A stretch of 64,000 nucleotides of DNA, taken from the NCBI GenBank assembly GCA_021234155.1, contig JAJEKV010000097.1, positions 2,393,477-2,457,476 on the forward strand, read 5' to 3'. The number at the start of each line of letters is the position of its first letter. Position 1 is the first letter of the stretch. This DNA comes from Isoetes taiwanensis (lineage: Eukaryota > Streptophyta > Lycopodiopsida > Isoetales > Isoetaceae). The notes under the pieces were generated by a model that worked only from the letters and a program-made list of their open reading frames with translations, searched no databases and had not been told where the DNA came from. Shown here one piece after another: positions 7,819-22,741 of the stretch. A program made the position numbers and the translations under genes.

Positions 7819-7850
7819 CATTAGGGCGGATTTGGGGTCTGAAAATGGCC
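7819..7850 (+). repeat. Left terminal inverted repeat
   Basis: This is the exact reverse complement of 21,406-21,437. It starts CATTAGGGCGG and ends AAAATGGCC. Weaker similarity continues inward: CCACGTCA-ATTT lies 20-35 bp inside both ends. Confidence 0.95.
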
Positions 7851-8455
7851 TCCTATCAGCCATTCCACGTCATATTTCCGCTCCCTTTTTCCCATGCCAC
7901 CTAGGATACCAAACTCTCATAATTACAGATTTGCTTGGAATATTCTTTCGGAATAAGGGGGATTGCACATTCATGGCGCCATATGTATTTAATTCTGTTG
8001 GTTGTCAGACGGACTGATGCAACACGTGGGACTTCTAAAATGCCACTTGCATTATAGCATACCGGCAAACTCATGGCGGTGTCTCTTGGTAAGCGTCTTG
8101 GCGTCCGCCTTCTACATTTCAAAAGTTGAATGTGTAGGTTGAAGCTTTGTATCGAGATCGGACTTTCATTTCGAGTGTTTGCATTTGCGCTTTAACCGAT
8201 CTTCACTTCATCCTAATCAAGGGCTTCCGCCCCTACAATTCCAAATTTGAATTTGCTTAATGTATAAAAGCATGGATTGTAGGAGAATGGACTTTTCGAT
8301 TTCCATATGCACGTTGCAAATTTCAAAAACGAAGTTAGTACGGACGTTCGGCTCACACGAAGCGAATTGTGTTGGGGCATAAAAATACCACACCTTGATT
8401 TCGCTACCGCGATCTACGATATGGAAGTTGCTTGTTGTCAAATTAAACTTAAACA
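7842..8455 (+). repeat. Left subterminal block, copy A
   Basis: About 610 bp that recur at 9,830-10,455. Shared landmarks in order are AAAATGGCCTCCTATCAGCC, GGCGCCATATGTATTTAATT, TTATAGCATACCGGCAA, a TATA-containing stretch TGTATAAAAGCATGGATTG, and ATATGCACGTTGCAAATTTC. Copy A includes the outer TIR; copy B lacks the outermost 23 bases. Confidence 0.9.
8263..8269 (+). promoter_or_regulatory. TATA box in left block A
   Basis: TATAAAA followed by GCATGG, conserved exactly in block B at 10,283-10,289. It lies on the side from which the plus-strand transposase-like gene would be read. Conservation in both blocks supports a promoter. Confidence 0.5.
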
Positions 8456-8620
8456 CAAGTGAGGTCGGCACTTACGTGGTTTTCTCGAGGAGGGTTTGGA
8501 GTGTTTTTTTTTAAATCCCAATTATCGACATAGTGTGACGTAGCATCTTGGTATTAAATAGTATGTTAAATTCGAATTATATCGGGTGTTCATTTTCGGG
8601 TTAAACTCAAATCATATAGG

Positions 8621-8727
8621 TTTAGGAATAAGGTTAAAAAAGGAAGATATTGGCTATTTAGGAATAAGGTTAAAAAGGAAGATATTGGATATTTAGGTAT
8701 AAGGTTAAAAAGGAAGATATTAGATAT
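8621..8727. repeat. 35-bp tandem repeat, three copies
   Basis: Units start at 8,621, 8,657 and 8,692, each TTTAGGAATAAGGTTAAAAA followed by GGAAGATATT. The third unit has GTATAAGG. It lies just inside left block A. Confidence 0.9.
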
Positions 8728-8968
8728 GGCTCAAATTTCGAGATATGCACATAATGGCATGTAATGATGGTTGATAGGACTGAATACTAATCATTCCCTA
8801 CGATTTTCACGCGTCTAATCCAGCCTATATCTATTCCAGCCCTAGATTGGCCCATTCTCCCCCCAATCTCCGCCCAATCTTTGCTAGATCCTCCCCCAAT
8901 TTCTCTAGTCCATCGCCATGAAGAGATCGGCCTACTTTAAGAGCCTGAGGTGTCCTCCAAGAGGCCTA

Positions 8969-9250
8969 TTACGGCTGGAAGAGGTGTTCCCTCATGAGTT
9001 CCCTCCATTGCCCACGGTTCTTGCTCTGAATGCCTCGATTCCTCGATTCCTCTCGATTCCTTTGACGAGGAATCGAGAATGAGGAATCGAGGGAAATTTC
9101 TCGAGCGAGGAGTTCATCCACAGTGTTCTTGAAGGTTTGGATAGGAGATTCTTGAGAAAAATGAGTGGTCTCACCGACCTGAGAAGAAGCCGAAGATGAT
9201 GAAGAAGATGAAGAAGTTGAAGACGAATCTGCTGACTTCGAGGAGCTCAT
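8969..9250 (-). CDS. Serine-rich small protein of the transposon
   Basis: This 93-residue frame begins MSSSKSADSSSTSSSSSS and continues with acidic/polar sequence (THFSQESPIQTFKNTVDELL). The low-complexity serine head resembles the MASSSS heads of the minus-strand genes further right in the same element. The downstream part overlaps a direct ATTCCTCGATTCC repeat. I cannot assign a function, and its coding status is uncertain. Confidence 0.35.
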   Translation of the reverse strand: MSSSKSADSSSTSSSSSSSSASSQVGETTHFSQESPIQTFKNTVDELLAREISLDSSFSIPRQRNREESRNRGIQSKNRGQWRELMREHLFQP

Positions 9251-9829
9251 GGCGTTAGTTCATGGTACATGCATGTTTTCTTTCTTTTCTTAAGCATTCA
9301 ACTAACGGTTATTTCTTATTTTTTTTTTGCAGATGATGAAGCAGATGAATGAAATTTGTTAGGGCGAGCACCTCTTATTTTTTTTTTCCTTGTTCTTAGT
9401 CGAGCTTGCCTCCAAACTCTTACCATATGACCAAGCCTCCCGGGCTTTTTTGTTGTGAATAGTTGAAGCCTCCGGGCATTTAAATTTACAAAATGATGTA
9501 AAGCCATACGGCCATAAAAAATTTTGAATGTAAAAAGTTTTTGCTTCTAATTCCATTTGAATACCTAACTTTTTTTTTACTGTACATGTGTTACCACTCT
9601 TAAGTACATAAGTCATTATCCCTTTTCAAAGAGCATATTATTTTCAAAAGATCACACCAAGCCCGAATAGTACATATGCAACAAAAATGGAACACACTAA
9701 ATTCGCATCGTGTGATCCACTTTCTTATTTGTTGTCAAATTAAAACTAAACACAAGTCCCTCGTCAATAGTCTCCCATTTGCATATAAAATATCTATCAT
9801 TCCAAGTTATATTATGTTTTATGAACTAA

Positions 9830-10455
9830 AATGGCCTCCTATCAGCCATTCCACGTCATATTTCCGCCCCTTTTTTCCCGTCAGATTTGCTTGGAATATT
9901 CTCCCGGAATAAGGGGAATCGCATATCTATGGCGCCATATGTATTTAATTCTCTTGTTGTCAGACAGATTGACGCAACATCGGCGGTAAACTTCTAAAAG
10001 CCACTTGCATTATAGCATACCGGCAACTCATGACGGTGTCTCTTGGTTTGTCGAGATACCACCAATCATGCGCATCACCGATTCTTGTCTTGCCCTATTT
10101 TCATTTAGAGTCCATTCCCGCCTTCTACATTTCAAAATTTGAATGTGTAGGTTGAAGCTTTGTATTAGACTTTCGTTTCGAGGCGCTGCGATTGCGCCTT
10201 AAAAGTTCGTAACCGGGATCTTTACTTCATCCCAATACAGGCTTCCCGCCCCCCTACAATTCGAATTTTGAATTTGCTTTTGTATAAAAGCATGGATTGT
10301 AGGAGAATGGACTTTTCCATATGCACGTTGCAAATTTCAAAAACGAGGTTAGTACCTGACCCCCTCAAACGAAGCCGAATTGTCTTTGGGGCATACAAAT
10401 TGTACACATTCATTTTGGCGCCGATGCGATCCACGCATGCGGTATGGAAGCTCCA
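9830..10455 (+). repeat. Left subterminal block, copy B (internal)
   Basis: A second copy of the left end, 1,988 bp inside the first. It starts at AAAATGGCC, that is 24 bases into the TIR, and follows block A to about 10,455 with small indels and about 60 bp of extra sequence near 10,050-10,120. It could come from a tandem end duplication or from nesting of two related elements. Confidence 0.9.
10283..10289 (+). promoter_or_regulatory. TATA box in left block B
   Basis: TATAAAA in the same context as 8,263-8,269. It lies about 500 bp upstream of the first plus-strand coiled-coil frame at 10,779, so it is the nearer promoter candidate for the transposase-like gene. Confidence 0.5.
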
Positions 10456-10778
10456 AATGATGTGTGGATAAGGATCCAACCGACTCAGAATATGCTCCGA
10501 TCTTCAATCGCAAAAAAGAGGTCTAAAAATAAGAACTTAGACCTCGACATGTTGCGCCTTTGCCCGACTCAAAAAGTGTCGACATATCCAGGCGGATGGC
10601 GGTTTATATCCATTGGATCCGTTGAGTGGCGGTGAAACCGCCATTTGGGACGTTTCAAGTTTAGTCCGATTTTGTGGTGACCGGTAACTTTGGCCTCTTG
10701 GGACATTGTGAGAGATTGAGAGAGAGGATGAAGGCATTCGAATCGAATACGGGTTCCTTGAGATGAGAAACCTTCCGA

Positions 10779-10985
10779 TTGTCACAAGAGAATTATAACT
10801 TAAACCAGCCAGCTCTTTTTTCTCTCGCCTTCATTACTCCAATCGTGATGAAGGAAAGGAATGACGGCTTGGGGAAGGAAACTTCTTTGAGATACGAAGT
10901 GGAGAAGTCCAAATTGGTGATAGGGCAGCTGCAAGAAAAGATCCAAGAGCTCGAAGAGCAAACTTTGGGCTTCAATGTAGGTTAA
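10779..10985 (+). CDS. Coiled-coil segment upstream of the transposase-like gene
   Basis: A 68-residue frame with a heptad-rich tail (YEVEKSKLVIGQLQEKIQEL) typical of a short coiled coil. It directly precedes and may be the N-terminal part of the plus-strand transposase-like gene, now out of frame. No catalytic motif is visible. Identity as a separate gene is doubtful. Confidence 0.35.
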   Translation: MSQENYNLNQPALFSLAFITPIVMKERNDGLGKETSLRYEVEKSKLVIGQLQEKIQELEEQTLGFNVG

Positions 10986-11399
10986 AGAATTTGAAGAAAA
11001 CACCCCTTGGCTTGCGAAAGGAAGAAGCATTATCGACCGATAGAGGAACCGAAGTTTGGATCAGGTGCATTCAGACGCGTGGTCACGGCCACAAGGTCCG
11101 TTTACAACACTAGCAAAGGCCGCTTAAGATCCAGGGAAACTAGAAGCAATCTTGGTTACGTAGTGAAGAACCTAGCGACGAGCAGGGGAGATAGTGGACA
11201 TGATTTGTCAGCCCTACAACTCTCCTCTCAAGAAGATGGTATTGGAAATGGTACTAGGGGAGATCTACAAGAAGTTAGAAGCGGCGGATGTCTGACTGTT
11301 TGTGATGATGTAGGCATCGATGAGGCTTGGTTACCGTTCTCTATTCAAGCCATTCCACGGCGTTGAAAAGAATGGGCACAAAAAGTATTAAGCTCCACG

Positions 11400-12960
11400 T
11401 CCACAAATTGTCGAGAATACAAGGGTTACTAGGACAAAGATGGTGTATGCCATATTAGGAGAGATGCACCACGTTGAATGTCTGGTCCCTGCCATAGCCA
11501 TAAAAGATAAGAATGGCAAGGATTGTTGTGATATAGTTGGAATGAATGAACGCAATAATCTTTGGGTTGACCCGTTACTCTCTTACAATTCCTTGTCAAA
11601 TATTATGACTTAACAATTCGCGAGAAACTAATGGTGAGATTGAAGTTTGCATAAAATTGGATGAAATGGAACCCGACCAAGTTTGAGAAGTATGAGAGGG
11701 TATCCGTTGTCATCATGAATAGAGCAATTGAGAATGCAATTGCACATGCTAAATCAAAGAGCAACAAGAATAACAAAAAGATGTAGAGGTGACTCGACGA
11801 GGAGAAGAAGCGTCATGGAAAAATGGTTCTCATGTCAATCAAGATGACACCGGTGGTTAGGTCTCTTTAAAGTTCAGAAAGAAACCCACGAGGTTTTGAA
11901 ATGGGTGTTCAATCAAACTGACATCCCGAGTCTAATATCTAGATTCGAGGGAGGGGAAAAATTGCAAGTAGATCACTATGGATCTTACAAAGTAATTTTT
12001 CACTTGGCGCGTCGATTTAAAACCGAGAAAGCAATGTACAACATAAGTGGAGGAGGACAAGGAACATGCAAAAGTTGTCTGTACTGCAATCATGCAAGGA
12101 AGTCAAGTACTGGGAAGACTGTTTCAACCTTGTCCCTTAACCAAGCAAATGCTCCTAATAGAGGAGAAGAAGATCCCAAGTTCCATGGCATTTTCCCCAT
12201 TCCATTAGAGAGGGTTCATATCTCGCACTTTTGCGGCTTTGTGAGAAATCATCGACAAGATGATATTTTGAGCTGCGGTCGTGTGGAACATTTCGACAAG
12301 AAGAGAAGAGAGGAAGGAATTCGTAGAGTTGAACATGTTCTATCGAGAAGCGGAGTTTTGCATGGTGGCAATGTAAGATTAGAGCTCGATGAGAAACGAG
12401 GCGGGAAGAACAAGTGTGCCTCGTAAGGTGTCAATTGAGGGATGAAAGCTCGATGCTTCATAAAGAATCATAGAGAGGCTCAACGGAAACCGGATGGGAG
12501 AAAAGGTCTATGAATTTGGAAAATTGCTTGGTTGATCACGAGAGCGACCCCACGAGATGGCGTTCGTTCGGCATTGAGGAAAAAAAAGCATGGGATGCAT
12601 TGTCTGAATTGTTCCCATACATTCGAGAGAATGGACCTCCTGAGAGAAGATCACGAAATGTTAGGTGCAAGCGAATAACAAATTTATTAAAGCTTTCATA
12701 GACGCATGGGGAGAGAGTGAAGTCACGCACTACTTGCACATCTTTTTGGGCTCATGCACCTTGGTTTTTAGGGAAGTATGGAAGCCTAGCGATGTGGAGT
12801 GCACAAGGCATGGAGAAGTCGCATAAACAAGCTAAAAATAGCCTTTTATCGTAACACTCAAAGAGGGGTGGAAATGTGGGAACCAACCCTCTAAGGCAGG
12901 ATAATGAGTGGTTTTATAGAAGGGCGATGGCTAAATCACGACAAGAAGGTCGGCTTTAAG
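11400..12960 (+). pseudogene. Transposase-like gene, frameshifted
   Basis: Several plus-strand frames join into one decayed protein. In order: VYAILGEMHHVECLVPAIAI with IVGMNERNNLWVD (11,440-11,570); FEKYERVSVVIMNRAIENAI (about 11,690); the longest frame, 11,896-12,426, with KTEKAMYNISGGGQ, a Cys pair in TCKSCLYCNHARKS, and PIPLERVHISHFCGFVR; then ESDPTRWRSFGIEEKKAWDAL (12,546-12,610), AWGESEVTHYLHI (12,705-12,745) and, after another shift, SLAMWSAQGMEKSHKQAK and NVGTNPLRQ (12,775-12,900). The layout of a C-x2-C element followed by a P-L-E/D-R-V-H block and a C-terminal QGMEKSH block recalls large uncharacterised transposase-like proteins of eukaryotic DNA elements. I cannot name the superfamily. 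At least four frame breaks make it inactive. Confidence 0.55.
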
Positions 12961-13145
12961 GAGCAACCCGTAAGTCGTAAAACACCATTGGCATAATCTT
13001 TGAAGAAAAGCGGAAAAGTTGCTTGGCAAAATTCTAGGGCCCCACTAGCATCGCAACGGTGGAGATCTAAGAGACAAAGAATCGGTAAAGTATACTTGTA
13101 ATGTGTAGCATGTTCACCTGACCTTGAAGTACTTGCCTCCAACCT

Positions 13146-13262
13146 TGTTTGCACAAGCGTAACTTGGCGTCGTGTGATCTTATTTGTATCATCACGGCCC
13201 GAGCGATTGGAGTTCGCTATTGCTTGCATTTATGTGGCTTCGTCGTGTGAAGCTTTACAAGA
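13146..13262. other. Single GCGTCGTGTGATC-type module
   Basis: Contains GGCGTCGTGTGATCTT at 13,165-13,180, between the plus-strand transposase-like gene and the minus-strand gene series. The facing arm is not clear here: CGTCGTGTGAAGC near 13,240 has the same orientation. Confidence 0.4.
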
Positions 13263-13392
13263 TAATAATAAAAAGGGTTACTTTTGATTAAAGTTGTGAA
13301 AGATGTTACATTGAAAAACAAAATACAACGACTCATTGTTGCTCCAGGTCTTGAGCTCTTCTTCATTATCTTCATCATCATCATCAGCTCCG

Positions 13393-13806
13393 TCCCTCGT
13401 CTTCGTCTTCATCTCTTCCCCTCAAGCGAGCAATCACCCTATCCAAGCGTTCCTCCAATCATCCCACCATCTCTTTGTACATGTCCGCTCACATCCCAAT
13501 AGCACAACGCGTGTTCTTACGCTGAATTAGCATCCTCGTTGCCGTCATAACCACCTCGGTCACGTTGTTGGGGCATGTCATCTGTCGACCTTCTATTCAA
13601 CCGCTTTGATTTGCCTCTCCGGCTACGAAGCATGAGAAGGTTGAATTCATTCTCTTCTTCTTTCTGGCTGAATTGTAACGGCGTTTTCCTTTAGAAGATC
13701 ATCTTGCTCCTTCAACCTCTTCATTAGAACACCCAACACTATGTCGGAAGAAGAGTTCTATCCTCTTGCGTTTTCCATTATCGCCAGTTGAGGATGTGGA
13801 GGCCAT
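13393..13806 (-). pseudogene. Small coiled-coil gene, paralogue 1
   Basis: The start at 13,806 gives MASTSSTGDNGKRKRIE, with a basic KRKR patch that could be a nuclear signal. A shifted frame gives SDIVLGVLMKRLKEQDDLLK, matching the MKRFKE-HDEN helix of the genes at 15,649 and 16,578. A further segment reads LEERLDRVIARLRGRDEDE. A TATAAA box lies on the minus strand at 13,893-13,898, about 88 bp before the ATG, the same spacing as in its paralogues. Frameshifts and an in-frame stop make it a pseudogene here. Function unknown. Confidence 0.5.
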
Positions 13807-14249
13807 AGATGACAAATGGGAGGGGCGTTAAGATTATAGAAGTGAGGAGCAAAGACTCTAACCGTGGAAGGAGCACAATGCAAGGACCTCAATTTATACA
13901 TATTAGCGCTTGAACATATTAAACACACTTTCTTTCTTTGTCGCCGTGCGTGTCGGCCGGATTCAAATTCGGTTGTCCGCTAGAACACATTAATGGTCTT
14001 GTCATTTGGAACACATTAATAACTATTCTAACTACACTGTATATCACACCACGAAAATCGCACCACGAGCTTTAAAACCCTATGAAGGGTTTTAAACCGT
14101 TAATGATCTGTCTTGTCATTCTCTCTACCACGGGATATTGAAAATTAAAAATAGGAAAAAATATTCGGTACATTTGTCAAAAACTTTTCCCATTGAAAAA
14201 TAAAACCAATTACAAACATTAAAAAAAGCGGCCCCTCTAGGAGGAGCCC

Positions 14250-14673
14250 GATGCCTATGATCGCCGGGGCAAAGCTCTTCCCGGAGGCGGTGATAATTTT
14301 TTTCTGCTCCTCCAACATGATTGCCTGCCCCGCAACCACGTTCTCATATTCCGCAACCTTATCTTCCCGCTCATCGAGTTGGGCTCGGGCAGCCTCTCCC
14401 GCTTCGATTGCGGCCCTAAGCCTCTCTTGGAGGTTATATCTCGTGGCGCGCAATTCGCGGTCTAAGGCAGCCCGCTGATTGTCGCGCACTAAAATCACCT
14501 CCCTGTAGAAGGCGGCCTTTTCCTCTGCCGCCCAACCGACTTGCGGCGTCTTCATCATTCTTTTCTTTTAGAAGGCGGATCCGTTCCTCCGCTTCAGCGC
14601 GAATGTTCTGAATTTCCTTGACCAAAACTTGAGACAAGATCTCGGCAGGGATGGAACTGGAGCTGGAGGCCAT
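14250..14673 (-). pseudogene. Small coiled-coil gene, paralogue 2
   Basis: The start at 14,673 reads MASSSSSIPAEILSQVLVKE, followed by a strongly heptad-rich stretch (EIQNIRAEAEERIRLLKEKN). One frameshift near 14,540 leads into WAAEEKAAFYREVILVRDNQ and further helix up to about residue 115 (LDEREDKVAEYENVVAGQA), with a hydrophobic end APAIIGIGLLLEGPLF near 14,250. A TATATAAAA-type box is at 14,764-14,771, about 95 bp before the ATG. The hydrophobic end could be a membrane tail. It is related to its neighbours by head and layout; function unknown. Confidence 0.5.
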
Positions 14674-15135
14674 TGAAAGTGATGGGAGAACAGGAGTGAT
14701 GGCTGAGGGCGGATGTGGTAGAACAGAAGATGGCGGATAGGAGAAGACAAAGGCCTCCGACGTTTTATATAGAAACTAGAGATACGTTGGAATCTACGGT
14801 TCGAAAATCACCGATAAAGTTGTGTAATAATCCTACGAGGCGAAATTATAGCATGCAATTAGGCAACGGTAGCCTATGTTCGCATCATGGGATCCGTCAT
14901 ATCCTAGCCGTACTGTATGCAGGCCGTACAAAAGACAGTGTTATTGTGGCAGCGCATGCCACGTCCTTGGCATGACGTTGTCATCCACAAGCCACGTATG
15001 TGAATAGACGTTGTCATCCACATGCAAATTCGCATTTACCTGCAAGTTATCACATAATCTAGCTAGATATTTGTGTTACATACACTTTTCCATTAATAAA
15101 TTATGAATTTATACATACAACGAGGTGTACGTTGT

Positions 15136-15213
15136 GGAGATCATCTGACGCGAAATCCATTGATTGCTACCTAATTGCAAGAATGGCATTTCGGCGTCGT
15201 GGTGATCTTTAAT
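15136..15213. repeat. Hairpin module (GCGTCGTGTGATC arms) 1
   Basis: Facing arms GATCATCTGACGCGAAAT and ATTTCGGCGTCGTGGTGATC enclose a loop with CCATTGATTGCTACCTAATT. The same loop occurs in the module at 16,006-16,078. It lies downstream of the coiled-coil gene starting at 15,649. Confidence 0.75.
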
Positions 15214-15291
15214 AAAACAAAACAAGAGAAACAGATAGAAGCAAGAAATAGAGCAAATTTTTTCTTTGAAACAAAAAATATATATACAATG

Positions 15292-15649
15292 GCTCACGGA
15301 TCTTCATGATCCTCGTAGGCGAAGCCGTAAAGCTGCGTTCTCATCCTCCAGACTCGAAGCTTCTTCTCCATATCTTCTAGCGCTGCGAAATATTGTGTCG
15401 CGATTAAAGCGCCTGGACCCTCTGACTATTGGCCTCTCGGTACTGGTTAATGTTCTTTGCGAGCTCAAGGTCTCGCTCATGCGGCCGACCCCTAGTGAAT
15501 TCTAACACGTCCCACCGCCTCCATCTTCTCGGCGACGGCGACTACATTTTCGTCGTGAACCTCCTTGAATCTCTTCATCACCACAAAGAAGGGTGATGTC
15601 CGCTGGCGCGATTCGGCGGTCGCTTCTTGGAGGAGGATGAAGATGCCAT
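15292..15649 (-). pseudogene. Small coiled-coil gene, paralogue 3
   Basis: The ATG at 15,649 gives MASSSSSKKRPPN, then frames break and continue as VVMKRFKEVHDENVVAVAEK and, near the end, LEDMEKKLRV and YEDHEDP. It is a near-tandem copy of the gene at 16,578, offset by about 930 bp, including the flanking hairpin modules. TATAAATAG is at 15,751-15,759 (minus), about 102 bp upstream. Frameshifted and truncated. Confidence 0.55.
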
Positions 15650-15785
15650 CGGAGGAGAAGGCGGAAGGCGGAAGGCGGAGGGGAGAAGATGAGCGAGAAG
15701 AAGGCGGAGGCGGAAGAGGATCTGAGGTCGAAGGCAAGATAGAAAGTCTTCTATTTATAATTGAGGATTTCGTAGTAGCTTGAGT

Positions 15786-15849
15786 CACACGACGCCAAGG
15801 ATGCCGTGGGTCGGGAAAATCGGCCGTTACTTCTCGCGTCGTGTGAGGA
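15786..15849. repeat. Hairpin module 2
   Basis: Arms GTCACACGACGCCAA and CTCGCGTCGTGTGAGG face each other across about 35 bp. It lies immediately upstream of the TATA box of the gene starting at 15,649. Confidence 0.75.
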
Positions 15850-16005
15850 AAAAAGGACCGTTACTTCTTCTAACGTCTTTTCTTCCGTAGAAAGCTCGTG
15901 TGATAATTTTTATTGATAATTTTCGTGATACAATCTATACATAAGTAATTTTACTGATACATAACTAAAGATAGAACTTCTCATTGAAGCAAAATAGAAT
16001 CGGCA

Positions 16006-16078
16006 TGGAGATCACCGCGACGCGAAATCCATTGATTGCTACCTAATTGCAAGCAAAGCATTTCGGCGTCGTGTGATA
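16006..16078. repeat. Hairpin module 3
   Basis: Arms GATCACCGCGACGCGAAAT and ATTTCGGCGTCGTGTGATA with the same CCATTGATTGCTACCTAATT loop as module 1. It lies downstream of the gene starting at 16,578. Confidence 0.75.
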
Positions 16079-16178
16079 TTTTAATAAAAAAGGAACATAC
16101 ATTGGAACAACAGGGATAGATAGAAGCAAAAATAGAGAAAAACTTTTCTTTGAAGCAAAAAATAGATAGATACAACGG

Positions 16179-16578
16179 CTAGGGATCTTCATGATCCTCT
16201 AGCTGATTTTCATGTCCCCATGTTGAAGCCGTAAGGTCAGCGTTCTCATCCTCCGCATTTCGGAGCTTCTTCTCCATATCTTCTAAGGCCTCTGAAATCA
16301 TGTGAGCGGTTTCAATCTGCCCGGCCCTAGGCTCGTAAGCCTCTTGGTACATGGCGAATGTTTCCACGAGCTCAACGTCTCGCCGTCAAGCGCCAGCCTC
16401 CCTCGTGAAGGCTAATGCCGACCGCCTCATTGTTCTCGGCGACGAGGCGGTTGTTTTCATCATGGATCTCCTTGAATCTCTTCATCACCACCGCAAGGGT
16501 GATGTCCACAGCAGCTTCACGGGGGCTGGGAGTGCTATCTTGGCGTGGTCGCTTGCTAGAGGAAGATGATGATGCCAT
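16179..16578 (-). pseudogene. Small coiled-coil gene, paralogue 4
   Basis: The ATG at 16,578 gives MASSSSSSKRPRQDSTPS, a serine head with a basic KRPR patch, then DITLAVVMKRFKEIHDEN and NRLVAENNEAV, a short coiled coil. After one or two frameshifts near 16,390 the coding sense resumes with RVELVETFAMYQEAYEPR and IETAHMISEALEDMEKKLRN, ending ENQLEDHEDP at 16,179. TATAAATAG at 16,664-16,672 lies about 86 bp upstream. The original protein would be about 130 residues, soluble and helical. Function unknown; presence in several copies suggests a structural or regulatory role for the element. Confidence 0.6.
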
Positions 16579-16676
16579 CGGAGCGGAAGGTGGAAGGCGG
16601 AAGCCGAAGTAGAAGATGAGCGTAAGGCGGAAGGCGACGGAGGTCGGCGTGGACATCGGTCTTCTATTTATAACAT

Positions 16677-16712
16677 GAGTCACACGAAGTTGCTTCTGCG
16701 CTGTGTGAGGAA
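16677..16712. repeat. Hairpin module 4 (short)
   Basis: Arms GAGTCACACGAAG and CTGTGTGAGG with a short loop, immediately upstream of the TATA box at 16,664-16,672. A further single arm, ATCACACGACGCGAAAA, lies at 16,765-16,782. Confidence 0.6.
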
Positions 16713-17385
16713 TAAATAAATTAATTGTCTTTTTCCAATAATATTTCATTTCTTGAGATAGATATCACACGACGCGAAAACCTAGATATGATGAGTAAAA
16801 ATCGACTGATGTATTTCAAGATGTGAATAAATACAAATAAAATAATTTTTATTAGGAATTTCTAAGGACAATCAGTACATAAATAATTTTACCGATACAA
16901 GTTGGAAAACATATAACTTCCAATTTCTCAAGCTTCGTCGTCAATTTCATGCTCTTTCAATCCCCCATGATCCAACAAGGCAATGACTTCCATGTTATCG
17001 ACCCGACTTCCAACCTTGGGTGAGTCAAGCCGCCAGCCTAAAAAATTTAACATATTGCTTTCGCCCAAGAGACCGGCAAGTCGTCAAAATATTGTAACAC
17101 AACATCCCTACAATTGCTATCACCCTTTTCGGTGTTTGATGCCAATTGGGAATGGTTCCCGAACATGCATAATGCACGGAGGTAATAGACAAACTCGCAC
17201 CCTTTGGTGAAAGTTCTCAATAAGACGATTATCTCCCCATTAACGAATCTTGAGATATATCTTAACAATGTAGAGTCCTTCAATCTTTCCCTCCCCCCGT
17301 GCATGTCGGCAAGAAAAATCATCTACTTCCCACAAATAAGAACCCTCAAGATTATCTTCTTCACATTTATCCTCATCTACCGGGC

Positions 17386-18461
17386 TTATGCTTTAGCGAT
17401 TGATGAAGGGCACGCCAAACCTGTGTAGATCCCGTTGGCGCCTTTGCACCCGGAGACGCTGAATTCTTCTTCCGCTGGTAGATTCGCCTCATCTTGAGCA
17501 AATCGAGACTCCAGCCTCTCATATGCTTCTTTAAGCTTTATAGCATTGCCGGTATAATTAGATACTTCAAACATCTCTTTGTCCAAATCCTCTTCAAAAT
17601 CTAGGCCTAAGTTTACCCATTCGCCAAGGTAATCGATAAGCTCGTCTTCCCTAGCACACATTCGTAACAAAGACGGGTTCCTCAGTATATCACTTAGCAA
17701 TAAGTATTCTTTGCCTTCCACTAAAATTGGCGTTATGTCAGACAACTTCTTTTCATCCTCATCCCCATCCTCATCACCTTGAAATCATCTCCCTCCTCGG
17801 TTCACCCAAGGCGGTCGTCGAAGCTAAAACTCCTACATTCTTGCTCTTCTTCTTGTAGATCTATCTTCATTTCTACGTCATAGTCGACATCATCACACAT
17901 AACCGACCCCCTTGGCTTAAAGATTTCATTGTTTCCAATGTATCTTCTGGTTTGGCCGCGAATGCAATAACTAGCAAATGCAAACGGCAAAGAAATAAGA
18001 TACCTTCTTAAGCACAAGAACGCAGCCAGAGGAGCCCGTTTAGCAAAGATTCTTGAAAAACATTTTTCCCGCTTGCAAATGGGAAGCCGCCTCCTCTAGA
18101 GCTGGTTTTGGAATCCACGAGCCGGGGACATCCGCAAAGGACGCGTCTTGGCGAGACCAAGCTGATGCAGGTGAAAGCTAAAGCAACCTCGCGATAGCAT
18201 CCAAGCTCGCCATCGCTTTTGCCATGATGTCCAACTCCTTGCAATAGAACGGATAAATCGCAATCGGGCGAACTTCCTCGTTGTCATGAGGGGCGGATGC
18301 ATACCATTCCGTGAACTTCACATAACAATCCATGGCGAAACAAATGACGAAAACAAGAAGATGTTTAGGAGCCGTAAGGCGCCTGTCCACTTTGAACTCA
18401 AGTAGCCGTTGTCGATTATGAAAGGGGACCACAGCCGTTGTGGGGAGATTTGTCCGTACAT
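17386..18461 (-). pseudogene. Unidentified transposon gene with acidic C-terminus
   Basis: The first ATG (18,461) follows directly after a CCCTAA array and starts MYGQISPQRLWSPFIID. Shifted frames continue with CFAMDCYVKFTEWYASAPHD, IYPFYCKELDIMAKAMASLD, then (18,100-18,050) DVPGSWIPKPALEEAASHLQ, then VDYDVEMKIDLQEEEQE, and finally the longest frame, 17,745-17,386, with VEGKEYLLLSDILRNPSLLR and LDFEEDLDKEMFEVSNYTGN. The last part is acidic and helical. No family is recognised. Multiple shifts mark it as decayed. Confidence 0.4.
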
Positions 18462-18462
18462 T

Positions 18463-18489
18463 TTAGGGTTAGGGTTAGGGTTAGGGTTG
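18463..18489 (-). repeat. Telomere-like CCCTAA array before an ATG
   Basis: About four CCCTAA units on the minus strand end in AAAATG, that is, right at the start codon at 18,461. Plants normally have TTTAGGG telomeres; here the unit is TTAGGG. Short telo-box motifs (AAACCCTA) are known promoter elements of plant genes, so this may be regulatory and not a chromosome-end relic. Confidence 0.7.
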
Positions 18490-18554
18490 GATCACACGAC
18501 GCGAAGACTACTATGTGCAACAAAAGCACAATGCTTGTCGCGGCGTCGTGTGAT
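18490..18554. repeat. Hairpin module 5
   Basis: Arms GATCACACGACGCGAAG and GCGGCGTCGTGTGATC are near-perfect inverted copies across about 35 bp. It lies between the H3-like gene (18,722-19,557) and the next minus-strand gene (start 18,461). Confidence 0.85.
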
Positions 18555-18721
18555 CCTCACGTATAACATTAAAAAAAAATACAAAGTGCGAAGCTAGGCT
18601 TCTAAGAAAGAAATGGACTAAGAGATTAAGCTTATAAAGCCATTGCATTAAGAAATATTATACATATGAAAAACACAAAGGCACTTCACCGGCCTTTTTC
18701 CGGGGGTCTTTCTTCTTGTTG

Positions 18722-19557
18722 TATTCAGCCATAAAATTTTGACCATAGTACTTCGGGATCCCTTATCGTAAGACGGTAGATGTCCTTGGGCATGATGACC
18801 ACCGCTTGGCATGTATTGTCGCAAGCTGCGAGTCCTCGAACAAACCGACACCAACCGCCCGAAGCCATTTGAAGAGCATTTAAGGCGCTTGCTTGAATTA
18901 TGAATCGGTATGATGTATCGCACCACACTCTTGCGTAATCTCTCTCACGAAGCCCGCAAATGGGAGACGCTTTTAATGACCATCTCGATTGCTTTCCGAT
19001 ACTTCTTTAATCTCAAGCCTTTAATACCAGGGCTTCGTCTTCCGCTTCCGCCTCTACCCTCACCCACCCCAAAGATTTGGAGCTGTTGCTCGGCCGGCTC
19101 TTCCCGCCGCCTCCTCACCCCACAAAGACTTCCAGTTCCTCGGCTACCGACTCTTCCGCCCCTCTCCTCACATTCCCCGGTCGCCTTCCCCTTTCTGGCG
19201 TTGGGCCTCCTCCTTTGATTTGAAGGTCCTGGCACCTCCACAGGAGGAACAGGAGGAGCAGGAAGAGCAAGAAGAGGCGGCTGCCCAATAATTAATCCGG
19301 CATCATATTCTGCTCGCACGGTCTCTCACATTTTCATCCTCTGTCTCCGAACCGGAGTGCACCTCCCTACTTACTCCGGAGCTGCTTCTCCCGGGGCTCA
19401 GTTCATGGATTTCTTTTCCGGGTCTTCTGTTAGGCATGGTCGGAGGAGGAGAATCTCTATCAGAGACTTCAGAGTCAGATGAAGAAGGTGGACTAATGTA
19501 ATCACCTGGCCTTACACCACCTGGATGGATCCTTGCAGCTTGCTTAGTTCTTGCCAT
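18722..19557 (-). pseudogene. Histone H3-like gene of the transposon, frameshifted
   Basis: The ATG at 19,557 gives MARTKQAARIHPGG; 10 of its 14 positions match the histone H3 start, including R2, T3, K4 and GG12-13, while K9 is replaced by Ile. A linker of roughly 170 residues, acidic then proline- and arginine-rich (SPPSSSDSEVSDRDSPPP, ALPAPPVPPVEVPGPSNQ), separates it from an H3 core: PGIKGLRLKKYRKAIEMVIK (alpha-N), PFAGFVREITQE (alpha-1, shifted frame), ALNALQMASGGWCRFVRGL (alpha-2) and QAVVIMPKDIYRLTIRD (loop 2/alpha-3; H3 has RVTIMPKDIQLARRIRG). The stop is at 18,722. Frameshifts occur near 19,310, 18,950 and 18,910. A TATAAA lies at 19,578-19,583. Homology is read directly; any chromatin role is inference. 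True H3 is 135 residues, so the linker makes this about twice as long. Confidence 0.8.
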
Positions 19558-19577
19558 GGCTTCTCGGCCGATGGCGC

Positions 19578-19583
19578 TTTATA
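19578..19583 (-). promoter_or_regulatory. TATA box before the H3-like gene
   Basis: TATAAA on the minus strand, about 20 bases before the ATG at 19,557. That is closer than the 86-102 bp seen for the coiled-coil genes, so transcription might start inside the present reading frame or the true promoter may lie further up. Confidence 0.35.
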
Positions 19584-19765
19584 CTACTTAACACCGACAA
19601 AAATAGACAACCGGCAAGAGATAAATAGTAAAAAAACGTGGGTTAAAGTAAAATATGATGGTAACGTTTTTAAATAATTGTAACGGAACCCTAAAAAATA
19701 TCGGACAAAATACGGAACCCTAAAAACATCGACAAAAACACAAATAAAAACCGAGATTCAAAGCG

Positions 19766-19978
19766 CTAGCCGATAGACATTTTCTTGTTGATCGCGAACT
19801 CACTAAACTTTACATTTCCCTCTTGCCTGTAACCAACCCTAATGCCATCAATAAAATAATGGAAGTTGTCAGCAATCTCCTCTGTCTCCATTAGCACTCT
19901 TAGCTCTGATAATGGCCATTCGCTTTCCATGGTGGCCGTATAAATGACTTCCTCCCCTCTCCATACTCGAATATCCAC
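19766..19978 (-). CDS. Small unidentified transposon ORF
   Basis: A 70-residue frame, MDIRVWRGEEVIYTATMESE, then LSELRVLMETEEIADNFHYF and FSEFAINKKMSIG. It is polar and acidic with a plausible start and stop, placed between the H3-like gene and the next minus-strand frame. No family recognised. Confidence 0.35.
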   Translation of the reverse strand: MDIRVWRGEEVIYTATMESEWPLSELRVLMETEEIADNFHYFIDGIRVGYRQEGNVKFSEFAINKKMSIG

Positions 19979-20067
19979 CGCATCGGAGTGTCTATTATGG
20001 TCCTCAAACGGCTCCCAAAAAGTTGTGCAGCCTCTCTTTTTCTCGTTTCCTTCGCTCTAGTTGACAA

Positions 20068-20364
20068 TTAACGATAAATATTGTTTTGGAAGAAAGTATC
20101 GAACTTAAAGGAGGACTTAACTACGCCGGACCTGTTTAGTTGACCGGATGATTCGTGGAATCGAACATCCTGTGTCGGAACCAAAAATAAGCCATCCACA
20201 AAAATCTCGGCGGGGAGAAAGCATGTATATGTCTTCTGAGCTTTTCGAACTTCCCTGCGCCATCCGAATATGTTAGCAAATACCTCAAACGGTGTGAAGA
20301 TTTTGAAACTCATCCTCACGCCTCCGCTTTTCGACATTCCCGCTTGCACCTCGTCACCATGCAT
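20068..20364 (-). CDS. Unidentified transposon ORF
   Basis: A 98-residue frame starting MHGDEVQAGMSKSGGVRMSF and continuing FEVFANIFGWRREVRKAQKT, FLPAEIFVDGLFLVPTQDVR. Composition is that of a normal soluble protein. It may be one part of a larger broken gene that extends to about 21,013. No family recognised. Confidence 0.35.
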   Translation of the reverse strand: MHGDEVQAGMSKSGGVRMSFKIFTPFEVFANIFGWRREVRKAQKTYTCFLPAEIFVDGLFLVPTQDVRFHESSGQLNRSGVVKSSFKFDTFFQNNIYR

Positions 20365-20683
20365 TTCTTCATTGCAATTACATTGTTCTCATTAGTCCGT
20401 GGCTTACAAAGTTCACTTAAAGGGGCAATTCAACCGCCTCAAGCTCGGTTTCCTGACCTTTACGCTATAATCATGTCCAGAAAACCGGATGCCTATACCC
20501 CGCAAGGTCACGGCATCCATACCTTGAAAAAGGACAATTCCTGATGTCTATGTGATACACGACGACAAGTACACTACTAATACTTTCGGCCGAATGACAT
20601 CCACGACGCCCGATAAACATAAACCCGCACAATAAATTTGTTTGTAAACACGTGTCAACGAAAAGAAATGAAAAGATAAGAAG

Positions 20684-20752
20684 ATCACACGACGCCAAAC
20701 TATCTCTACGCTAGCTTAAGTAGTCGACAGCCTAGCTTCGCGTCGTGGTGAT
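20684..20752. repeat. Hairpin module 6
   Basis: Arms GATCACACGACGCCAAA and CTTCGCGTCGTGGTGATC enclose about 35 bp. It separates the frames at 20,068-20,364 and 20,732-21,013. Confidence 0.8.
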
Positions 20753-21013
20753 CCGCTTAAGGTGGTTACCATTTGCGGGCAATTTTGGGAAGCTATTTTT
20801 GGTGGAGATTAGCTCTTTGGCCATATCGGAAGGGGTATATGCATGTCGTATTGTTATACTTTCCACTTTCCTACCGCTAGAATTCAACTTGAACTCTTTT
20901 ATCCTACCTATCCAATGTGTCCAAGACGCCCGATCGCTTTTGTCGCTAACTCTATGCTCGCCCCTCGATGGCAGCATACTCACCCACGAACCTATTGAGA
21001 CAAAACCTCCCAC
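20732..21013 (-). CDS. Unidentified transposon ORF, weakly BAH-like
   Basis: A frame of 93 residues with SWTHWIGRIKEFKLNSSGRK, VESITIRHAYTPSDMAKELI. The pattern of a W-x-G-R-I strand, a polar turn, then a strand ending in a P-S-D/E-M helix start recalls the beginning of a BAH domain, but I see too little to claim it. It lies next to the right end of the element. Confidence 0.25.
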   Translation of the reverse strand: MGGFVSIGSWVSMLPSRGEHRVSDKSDRASWTHWIGRIKEFKLNSSGRKVESITIRHAYTPSDMAKELISTKNSFPKLPANGNHLKRITTTRS

Positions 21014-21405
21014 TTCTTGACCTTGGGAGTTCTGTAAAATGGGGCAAGAACACGTAAATTACAGGAGACATGGATTGCGTGATGAGGAGTGAAGGCGAGA
21101 GGATGCACGAGGCGCCCGGAGTGACAAGATGAGGTTTGGCGCCAAAATTTGACAAGGGAGTTGGTGACGGCGACAAGCGGTCAAAGTCACCATTATTTTG
21201 GGCGGCGGGCTTAATCCTCGAAAAATACGGGCCATTAAAATGGTTGCAATAAAAGCGCAGGCATCCCCTATGAAAATACGCCATGTGGATGCCAAGTAAG
21301 CCTGCTCATCCTTCTACCTGCCAAGTAATACTGACTTTCGTAAAAAAGGCGCAAACCTGATTGGTCCTGGCGAATCTGACGTGGAAATCTTTAGCCCAAG
21401 ATAAG

Positions 21406-21437
21406 GGCCATTTTCAGACCCCAAATCCGCCCTAATG
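21406..21437 (-). repeat. Right terminal inverted repeat
   Basis: This is the exact reverse complement of 7,819-7,850, lying within the gag/pol region of gypsy 1. The gypsy gag frame reads into it without a stop until inside the transposon, as expected for an insertion into coding sequence. Confidence 0.95.
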
Positions 21438-22741
21438 GAGGGGATGGAGCTATGATTTGAGCAGGTGATTCCACTATAGGTGGTGAAGACCTGGCAGTGG
21501 AATGCCTACTTGATTCAGCATGTACATGAGCTTCATTCATGCTTCTAGTTTGCACCACCATAACTTCTTCAGATTTGGGAGCTTCTGTAGCCTGAATAAA
21601 TCTTATAGAGGTACTTGGTTCAGCAAATCTCACAGGAGGTTTAGGCTCTGGTCTCTTTTCTTTTTCCTGCTTAGCAAAATATTCCTTAACAGCACACCTA
21701 GCATCAGTATGGCCAACTTCTTTACAAAAAGAACAAACAGGACACTCCTTTCCAAAGTGGCCTTTTCTATTGCATTTAGGACACACTTGCCAATAACAAA
21801 TTTCTGATGGATGAGAATTCCTATTGCAATGAATACATTCAGGGTAAGTTTTACCTGTTCTTGCAGCCTTGAGTTCAACCAATTGTTTGGTTATTTCTCG
21901 CTAAAGCTTCAACCTTAGATAAGTCGACTTGACCTCCGCAACTTGAGAATTTGCTTCCTCCTCTTTAGATTTCTTTTTTTTTTCTCGTATGGCATAAACC
22001 GGAATAGAAGGGTGATGATCATAATGTGCATCGGTAGAGCATCGGGGTAAAACGGATCATGGCTATGGTGAGGAACATGGTGCTTATCGGGCAAAGTAGA
22101 GAGCATCCGAGTTAGGTCGATGGTTTTGGCAAAACTTTGTATATAGAATCAAATCCTTCAGCACTTGGATCTTGAGCAACTTTCTTTGGATATCCGTCTT
22201 CTTTCCAAACCATTGATGAAAGTCAGAACTAAAAAAGGGTTGGGATGGTGACTTGTGCTCTTTGGCACCTGCTCATAAATGTACTAAACCTCTCCTACTG
22301 ATTCACACTTTCTCCTGCATGTATAGAAAAACCTTGCAACTCATTAACCAAATCTTTTGGAGCAGCTAACTTACCAAATCTATCCAGGAACTTTTTGACG
22401 AGTTCATCCCATGAAGTGGTACCCATTAACTTTTCATAAGTTAACCAAGCACCAGCTTCACTTTCTTCTTTGAAACATTTTTCAAACTCTGAGAGCTTGC
22501 AACCTTTCTTGAAGCCATAATCCCTGTAATAGTCCTCAAATATTCTCAAAAAGTTGTTAGCACTCATACTGGAATCAAAAGTAGGCAGAGGCACAGGAAC
22601 ATTCAACTCGAATTGGTATGGCATATTTTGAAGCAGGCTAGTTGAGAAACTTGAAGGCAATGGCCTTTCTCTGCAGTGATCTGATGCATCAATATCTTCT
22701 AATGGTTCTTGTTCTGCAGGAAACTTTTGCTTTGGAGCCAT
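21435..22741 (-). pseudogene. Ty3/gypsy gag (gypsy 1)
   Basis: The ATG at 22,741 gives MAPKQKFPAEQEPLEDIDAS. A capsid-like segment follows with FDSSMSANNFLRIFEDYYRD, EAGAWLTYEKLMGTTSWDEL and KKFLDRFGKLA. After disrupted sequence (22,290-21,890) a Cys/His-rich region gives CIHCNRNSHPSEICYW, CPKCNRKGHFGKEC and CSFCKEVGHTDARC, that is two good CCHC knuckles and one partial. The frame then runs into the right TIR of the DNA transposon. Pol continues on the other side of that insertion at 7,821. Confidence 0.8.

Follow-up and report, generated by a model that had tools for sequence, protein, structure and literature searches.

The window analysed here is a stretch of 64,000 nucleotides from the genome of Isoetes taiwanensis. 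It contains a 13.6-kb element bounded by perfect terminal inverted repeats (TIRs), and within it, on the minus strand, a gene that combines the tail of histone H3 with an H3-like core. The following features were annotated:

7819..21437, no strand: whole TIR element carrying the H3-like gene, 13.6 kb, 32-bp perfect TIRs; its boundaries were also seen in other copies
7819..7850, plus strand: terminal inverted repeat, CATTAGGG..., 32 bp, 100% complementary to its mate
10374..12965, plus strand: candidate transposase, broken here; placed by tblastn to 11484, the remainder to 12965 by eye; about 860 residues as estimated from better copies
14145..14775, minus strand: open stretches that look like coiled coil by eye, possibly a gene; the 14148-14567 part gave no Pfam match above cut-off
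16372..16764, minus strand: open stretch, coiled coil by eye, possible gene; no Pfam match
16931..18384, minus strand: ORF3, uncharacterized acidic protein encoded downstream of the H3-like gene; resembles, weakly but specifically, the ORF found after H3 in a second set of genes
18686..19557, minus strand: histone H3-like gene, made up of the MARTKQAARIHPGG tail, a linker of about 150 residues, the H3 core and a C-terminal extension; its frame is broken in this assembly, and its end was set by comparison with an intact copy
19766..20628, minus strand: ORF1, unknown protein, upstream of the H3-like gene; placed by tblastn with an open copy
21406..21437, minus strand: terminal inverted repeat, mate of the first, 32 bp, 100% complementary

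The preliminary description of this locus had recognized the H3-type tail and the H3-like core on the minus strand. The tail indeed starts at 19557 and the core follows downstream in other frames; the start of the gene was thus placed correctly, whereas the end given, 18722, falls short of the true end near 18686. Its position wholly inside the element and far from both ends also holds, with 1.9 kb to one TIR and 10.9 kb to the other. On its own, the broken window copy gave no Pfam histone match and nothing useful against the PDB, where histone H3 appeared at E=0.73 only. In a direct comparison, a host H3 (L081) scored 39.7 bits against the 1000 bases around the gene; the best mononucleotide shuffle reached 21.9 bits, and none of the 500 shuffles reached 39.7. 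Because the score lies above all shuffles, the combination of tail and core is real and not due to chance.

The preliminary description had proposed a translated search of the genome for intact copies, a comparison with H3 profiles and dN/dS between copies. At the DNA level, scoring of the best 40 of 538 candidates gave 41 matches at at least 40 places, 39 of the 41 listed matches covering the full 836 bases. The protein search (best 134 of 8766 candidates scored) gave 139 matches, which collapsed to 132 loci, and other copies were found to carry both tail and core; with this and with the score above all shuffles, neither of the outcomes that the preliminary description named as refuting it was observed. 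Most of the 139 scored matches show stops or partial extent in this assembly, and 12 span residue 1 to at least residue 289 without a stop; among these 12, part of the core is missing from L031 and L041, and the C-termini of L036 and L037 are altered. Two full-length copies (C1072 and C1048) encode 291 amino acids; after MARTKQTARIHPGG comes a linker of about 150 residues, in which RRRPEESAE units occur, and then the H3 core with a C-terminal extension. The intact copy L009 matched the Pfam Histone family (PF00125) over residues 151-267 with E=1e-30 and 107 bits, against a cut-off of 26.4, and matched histone H3 in the PDB at E of about 1e-30. A search of 5.8 billion proteins with the whole protein returned 5153 matches among 7955 scored, and the 11 that we examined from the best 120 were ordinary H3 in two or more copies. 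The linker alone found no relative at E≤1 in the same collection (459 candidates scored). Structure models were poor, and fold searches yielded nothing at E≤0.001. Short-pattern scans of viral contigs found no relative of the H3-like or the transposase-like protein, so that a viral origin is without support here.

Identity to host H3 is 54-60% for the core of the window family, in which loop 1 is longer by four residues and R63 is replaced by P or L. Residues R49, R69, H113, R116, T118, D123, and L126 were kept in 10 of the 10 window-family members aligned, a comparison that left out L031, L041, L042, and L045 for their truncated, altered or deleted cores. Four of these residues (H113, R116, D123, and L126) we take to be part of the H3-H3' interface, and the interface residues that we looked at are kept alike in the window family and in the second set of genes described below. 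The centromeric variants CENH3 and CENP-A also have a divergent H3 core, a longer loop 1 and an altered tail. The window family resembles them in the divergent core and the longer loop 1, and is unlike them in having four extra residues in this loop and in beginning with the exact ARTKQTAR of canonical H3.

We examined the gene region in 51 copies including the window, some of them in part (L068 least), and tallied the tail in 49 of the 51, leaving out L068 and L069, which have no readable ungapped tail. The tail keeps the R2-T3-K4-Q5 start of H3, with K4 in 48/49, R8 in 48/49, H10 in 49/49, and P11 in 45/49. At residue 9, we found Ile in 46 tails, Thr in three and Lys in none. The Ile9 reported for the window tail is therefore representative of the family, whereas the Ala6 reported with it occurs in the window copy alone, 45 of the 49 readable tails having Thr at this position. 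Because Lys is absent from residue 9 in all readable tails, the loss of K9 is a trait of the family and not a quirk of one copy; none of the 49 has the canonical tail with a modifiable K9. With open tail-plus-core genes, Ile or Thr at residue 9 and signs of selection (see below), the central claim of the preliminary description, a DNA transposon family that carries an H3 derivative, stands.

The same description took the window copy to be frameshifted, and this part does not hold up well: the breaks are probably an assembly artefact, namely nanopore errors at CG and CHG sites. Between paired element copies, there are 0.9-2.1 substitutions for each gap opening, the gaps being mostly single-base, and the differences are concentrated at CG and CHG (CWG) motifs, with no predominance of transitions. 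When six copies were compared with one, 48% of the CAG/CTG motifs differed, as did 22% of the CG motifs; the corresponding values for isolated motifs were 7% for CHH, 8% for GAC, 2% for GTC, 3% for GC, and 5% for WWW. Two other insertions, located in copies C1027 and C1026, likewise gave a ratio of 1.2 and a similar motif enrichment between their paired LTRs. We had considered that the frameshifts might represent decay or a mutation process specific to the element, and dropped both explanations because the same signature is present in these LTR pairs. In a diverged pair of other elements (78% identical), the ratio was 6.8 in one stretch, 7.1 in another and 1.1 in the remaining one. According to the available text of the genome paper, the v1 assembly of I. 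taiwanensis was made from nanopore reads (flow cell 9.4.1) and polished with racon and pilon (PMC8566536). We infer that the errors at CG and CHG sites reflect 5-methylcytosine; if they do lie at methylated bases, the element copies are densely methylated and targets of the silencing pathway. The CG/CHG signal thus suggests that many copies are silenced at present despite their H3-like gene. With errors of this kind, frameshift calls in repeats of this assembly would be unreliable.

For the analysis of selection, we aligned 14 frames, three of them shortened (L031, L041, and L045), calculated dN/dS by the method of Nei and Gojobori, and defined the tail as the first 20 codons. Between 12 copies of subfamily A and L043 of subfamily B, dN/dS was 0.17-0.27 in the core, 0.08-0.30 in the tail, and 0.33-0.48 in the linker, values to be read with the knowledge that the frames were picked for being open, that the tail offers few sites and that residual sequencing errors raise dN. 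Against the shortened L045, also of subfamily B, the copies of subfamily A gave 0.16-0.30 in the core, 0.09-0.43 in the tail, and 0.39-0.63 in the linker. The comparison within subfamily B (L043 versus L045) gave an overall dN/dS of 0.81, with 1.29 for the small number of tail sites; this is as expected after insertion, and gives a present function no support. The H3-like gene was apparently kept by selection while the element was mobile, and the values fit a gene that would be needed while the element moves and that would drift after insertion.

The inner sequence of the element is common to the window and to 10 copies that we fetched with their flanks. The TIR proximal to the H3-like gene was located at one common boundary in 10 of these 11 copies and the far TIR in six, with unrelated flanks. 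By eye, the left flank reads CAT in 10/10 and the right flank ATG in 5/6. No shared 8-bp target-site duplication was found at the five copies with both ends read, and nothing longer than CAT/ATG was seen by eye. Given the nearly constant CAT/ATG flanks and the lack of a longer target-site duplication, CATTAGGGCGGATTTGGGGTCTGAAAATGGCC is the most suitable reading of the TIR. Just left of 7819 and right of 21437, we noticed by eye retrotransposon-like frames, with a zinc-knuckle-like match on the right, which suggests that the element was inserted into an LTR retroelement. Pfam searches with ten stretches of the window found no relevant domain for the H3-like gene, no transposase domain and none for the other ORFs of the element; the sole match above cut-off was a zinc finger at 21394-21900, in a stretch that starts in the TIR and runs outside the element.

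A transposase-like gene accompanies the H3-like gene in other copies as well. With the best 112 of 3453 candidates scored, a transposase-like copy was found downstream, on the opposite strand and in the expected orientation, at 31 of the 132 H3 loci (median distance 8.0 kb). Random placement would pair 0.32 loci; two further pairs were in another arrangement. For the transposase-like ORF, only three relatives were found among 5.8 billion proteins, at 33-44% identity, and none of three such ORFs contained a Pfam transposase domain at E≤10. In a check for the acidic triad that DDE-type transposases carry in an RNase H fold, the columns without variation across five transposase-like sequences included D127, D245, and D370. 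The structure model was of low confidence (pLDDT 45.9), and its best fold match, HzTransib, was weak at E=0.05. The gene is therefore a putative transposase, a label drawn only from its position and from the linkage of the copies, and possibly represents an undescribed transposase group without a Pfam domain.

We found a second set of H3 genes by searching the genome with the Pfam Histone profile (best 150 of 8705 candidates scored) and fetching 15 regions. Two of these (L081 and L082) contain canonical host H3, nine (L072-L080) have an H3 core at the end of open frames 456-485 codons long, and four (L083-L086) have shorter frames with the same kind of core. The nine long proteins consist of a novel N-terminal domain, a charged repeat-rich stretch and a core that is 85-90% identical to host H3. 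The ARTKQ start is absent from all nine, which could be aligned; L080 shows, by eye, an ARKS motif about 60 residues ahead of the core. Of 36 pairs, 15 had a finite core dS above 0.3 and gave core dN/dS values of 0.013-0.094, the other pairs being saturated (19) or too close to judge (two), and the core was more constrained than the N-terminal part. These values indicate that selection preserves the H3 fold itself.

Members of the second set (L072-L080 and L087) are dispersed in the genome, often with a fixed partner ORF. When the best 109 of 5533 candidates for this ORF were scored, 43 of the 109 copies lay no more than 4 kb from a scored H3, in every case on one strand with it and in a constant order. 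The partner ORF is likely homologous to ORF3 of the window element: hmmsearch gave E=0.0044, the only two hits at E≤1 among 1252 peptides both being ORF3, one BLASTP pair gave E=1.2e-5, and hhalign gave E=0.095 with a probability of 0.6%. One member of the set, C1056, has an LTR within 2 kb upstream of its H3 frame. The match of this LTR to the 3' LTR of the related C1027 insertion stops at base 1581, directly followed by TGGTATCAGAGC, which is presumably a plant initiator-Met primer-binding site, and the match to the 5' LTR of C1027 continues into the leader. The first Met of the H3 frame lies about 0.7 kb beyond the primer-binding site. L080, from a second subfamily, has leader sequence in common with the C1027 insertion (E=5e-8). 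The LTR and primer-binding site ahead of the H3 frame place the second set in the gag position of LTR retrotransposons, as seen in one copy (C1056). The existence of the second set suggests more than one origin or spread of histone ownership in this genome.

Plants silence transposons through H3K9me2 and the CHG methylation linked to it. Our main reading, to which we give a probability of roughly 40%, is that the element encodes a working, selected H3 variant of its own, which enters chromatin, resists H3K9me2-based silencing and so helps the element to persist. The H3 fold would pair with host H4, and the variant would be built into chromatin, perhaps that of the element copies themselves. 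Once incorporated, it could bear K4 marks and not H3K9me2, since its residue 9 is not methylatable, and the resulting resistance to silencing would let the element persist. This reading draws on the H3 fold, the family-wide loss of K9, the copies with open frames, a dN/dS that stays below 1 in both core and tail, and the linkage to the transposase-like gene, all seen at the level of sequence; on this basis the protein is predicted to be expressed, to pair with H4, to be deposited and to act against silencing. In both sets the core is the most constrained of the long parts compared and the interface residues examined are kept, for which the simplest reading is a partner of H4 that acts on chromatin, and a tail that keeps its K4 end and drops K9 points to an anti-silencing role. 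Among the three options of the preliminary description (interference with K9 methylation by mimicry, occupation of K4 readers, and entry into chromatin), incorporation into chromatin fits best. We count against our reading that the window-family core is only 54-60% identical to host H3, and the four extra residues in loop 1 and the change of R63 to P or L could prevent normal nucleosomes. The absence of the ARTKQ start from the nine aligned members of the second set counts against the K9I tail as a general feature. Further points against it are the stops or partial extent of most scored matches, the defects in four of the 12 stop-free ones, the dN/dS of 0.81 within subfamily B, and the CG/CHG sign of present silencing.

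More tentatively, and with some doubt, we consider that two classes of mobile element, represented by the TIR DNA transposons and the LTR-linked genes, might each keep an H3 next to a shared ORF3 so that the element-owned histone builds or marks the element's own chromatin, a 'private nucleosome' that would bar host H3K9 methylation. An element-owned H3 without Lys9 would attack the substrate of the silencing pathway and not its enzymes. The testable questions are whether the protein pairs with H4, where it is located, and whether expressing copies escape CHG methylation. The available text on the Isoetes repeat annotation states that repeats similar to plant proteins are discarded (PMC8566536), a procedure that could hide histone-carrying elements.

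A chromatin tether is a rather unlikely alternative. According to this explanation, pairing of the H3 fold with H4, or its binding to nucleosomes, would bring the element's transposition machinery to chromatin, and the loss of K9 would be incidental. The stronger constraint on the core than on the linker in the window family is consistent with it, as is the second set, where H3 is the more constrained C-terminal domain of a larger protein and where C1056, the one copy with its upstream DNA read, has H3 after an LTR and a primer-binding site, a place suited to tethering. The conserved tail of the window family, with Lys9 absent from 49/49, goes beyond what tethering needs.

We think it improbable that the gene works as a tail mimic, whose ARTKQTARI start (peptide ARTKQTARIHPGG) would occupy K9 methyltransferases through the K-to-I change, or K4 readers or demethylases, and dampen silencing in trans. 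The constraint on the tail against L043 (0.08-0.30) agrees with such a role, and there are precedents in the accessible parts of the literature: mammalian G9a and GLP bind an H3K9M peptide and H3K9M lowers K9 and K23 methylation (PMC9677696), an H3.3 K36M transgene is dominant-negative in Arabidopsis (PMC7825600), and the geminivirus protein TrAP counters H3K9me2 in plants by binding the catalytic domain of the H3K9 methyltransferase KYP and inhibiting it (PMC4606454). However, the histone precedents found concern K-to-M, the literature searched offering nothing on K-to-I at K9 in its accessible text, and G9a is described as binding K9M no better than the unmodified peptide (PMC9677696). Moreover, I9 is followed by His in all readable tails and mostly by Pro and not by Ser-Thr, and a tail alone leaves the conserved core and the second set unexplained. 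The His-Pro after I9, together with a second set that has a tighter H3 core and no ARTKQ start, weakens the idea of a K-to-I inhibitor, and this second set argues that the histone fold rather than the tail alone is the selected part. The likeness to TrAP would hold only if the tail mimic were right, and the available text does not describe TrAP as a histone (PMC4606454).

Passive capture, in which a transposon took up an H3 gene and amplified it as a functionless passenger, appears still less probable. The accessible text on a fungal hAT element indicates that its H3 copies can all be dead (PMC6710886), and most scored copies in the present assembly are broken or partial; however, much of this breakage is probably sequencing error, and the 12 open frames among the 139 matches and the dN/dS well below 1 between subfamilies speak against a passenger. 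Pack-TYPE elements carry captured coding DNA without element-level selection, a definition that the same dN/dS values do not match. Finally, the tail closely matches H3, as expected of an unusual host H3 variant copied around by nearby transposons, and such an origin outside the element is very improbable given the element sequence around the gene in the window and the 10 copies fetched with flanks, the same upstream TIR boundary in 10/11, a linker without a relative at E≤1 (459 candidates scored), and the canonical sequence of both host H3 genes examined (L081 and L082).

An H3 variant owned by an element has its closest counterparts in fungi, where H3-carrying DNA transposons are already known from the available texts. 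In Pyrenophora tritici-repentis, the H3-like gene H3L lies in a hAT-type TIR DNA transposon with a transposase and another ORF; 26 nearly identical genes, ESTs and elements of 5.6 and 2.3 kb with a hAT domain were described (PMC3538342). The family studied here shares with H3L the TIR DNA transposon with an H3-like gene, a transposase-like gene and other ORFs, the many copies, insertions in the N-terminal tail and a core that fully matches neither H3 nor CenH3 (PMC3538342). Unlike H3L, as far as its accessible description goes, it resides in a plant genome, in a 13.6-kb element in which we found no Pfam transposase domain, and has diverged subfamilies, dN/dS evidence and a family-wide loss of K9; it is known here from sequence, whereas H3L has ESTs. 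The hAT elements of Pseudocercospora, Cercospora, and Sphaerulina captured and amplified H3 and were inactivated by RIP, and have a 20-bp TIR and an 8-bp target-site duplication (PMC6710886). They are similar in carrying H3 in a DNA transposon with many copies, and differ, in the text available, from the Isoetes family, which has several open frames, differences that are not mainly transitions, and no 8-bp target-site duplication seen. The window element thus agrees with the fungal type in having an H3-like gene inside a TIR DNA transposon, and lacks a detectable hAT domain and the 8-bp duplication. The plant case is distinct in its element type, its family-wide loss of K9, the selection measured across diverged subfamilies and the second, LTR-linked set.

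In plants, VANC of the Arabidopsis VANDAL transposons is an element-encoded protein that causes loss of silent marks and, in the accessible text, binds noncoding regions of specific copies (PMC10398659). Its purpose is possibly the same, the protein here being a histone whose anti-silencing role is our proposal. A histone-carrying plant transposon was not among the best matches in the literature searched (subscription papers and preprints fell outside its scope), and term searches found no 'histone' in the main text of a 2026 review on gene capture by plant transposons (PMC13317346) or of the genome papers of I. taiwanensis (PMC8566536) and I. sinensis.

We made some further observations on the noncoding parts of the element. 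A subterminal segment is duplicated, at 7842-8341 and 9828-10355, with a spacing of about 2 kb. Just downstream of the H3-like gene, four tandem CCCTAA units, a human-type telomere repeat, were seen by eye at 18463-18486, and copy C1068 seems to carry similar repeats. A recurrent inverted motif, GATCACACGACGC / GCGTCGTGTGATC, was noticed by eye near 18489-18557, 20681-20755, 13165, and 15147-16089, and could form hairpins between the genes of the element.
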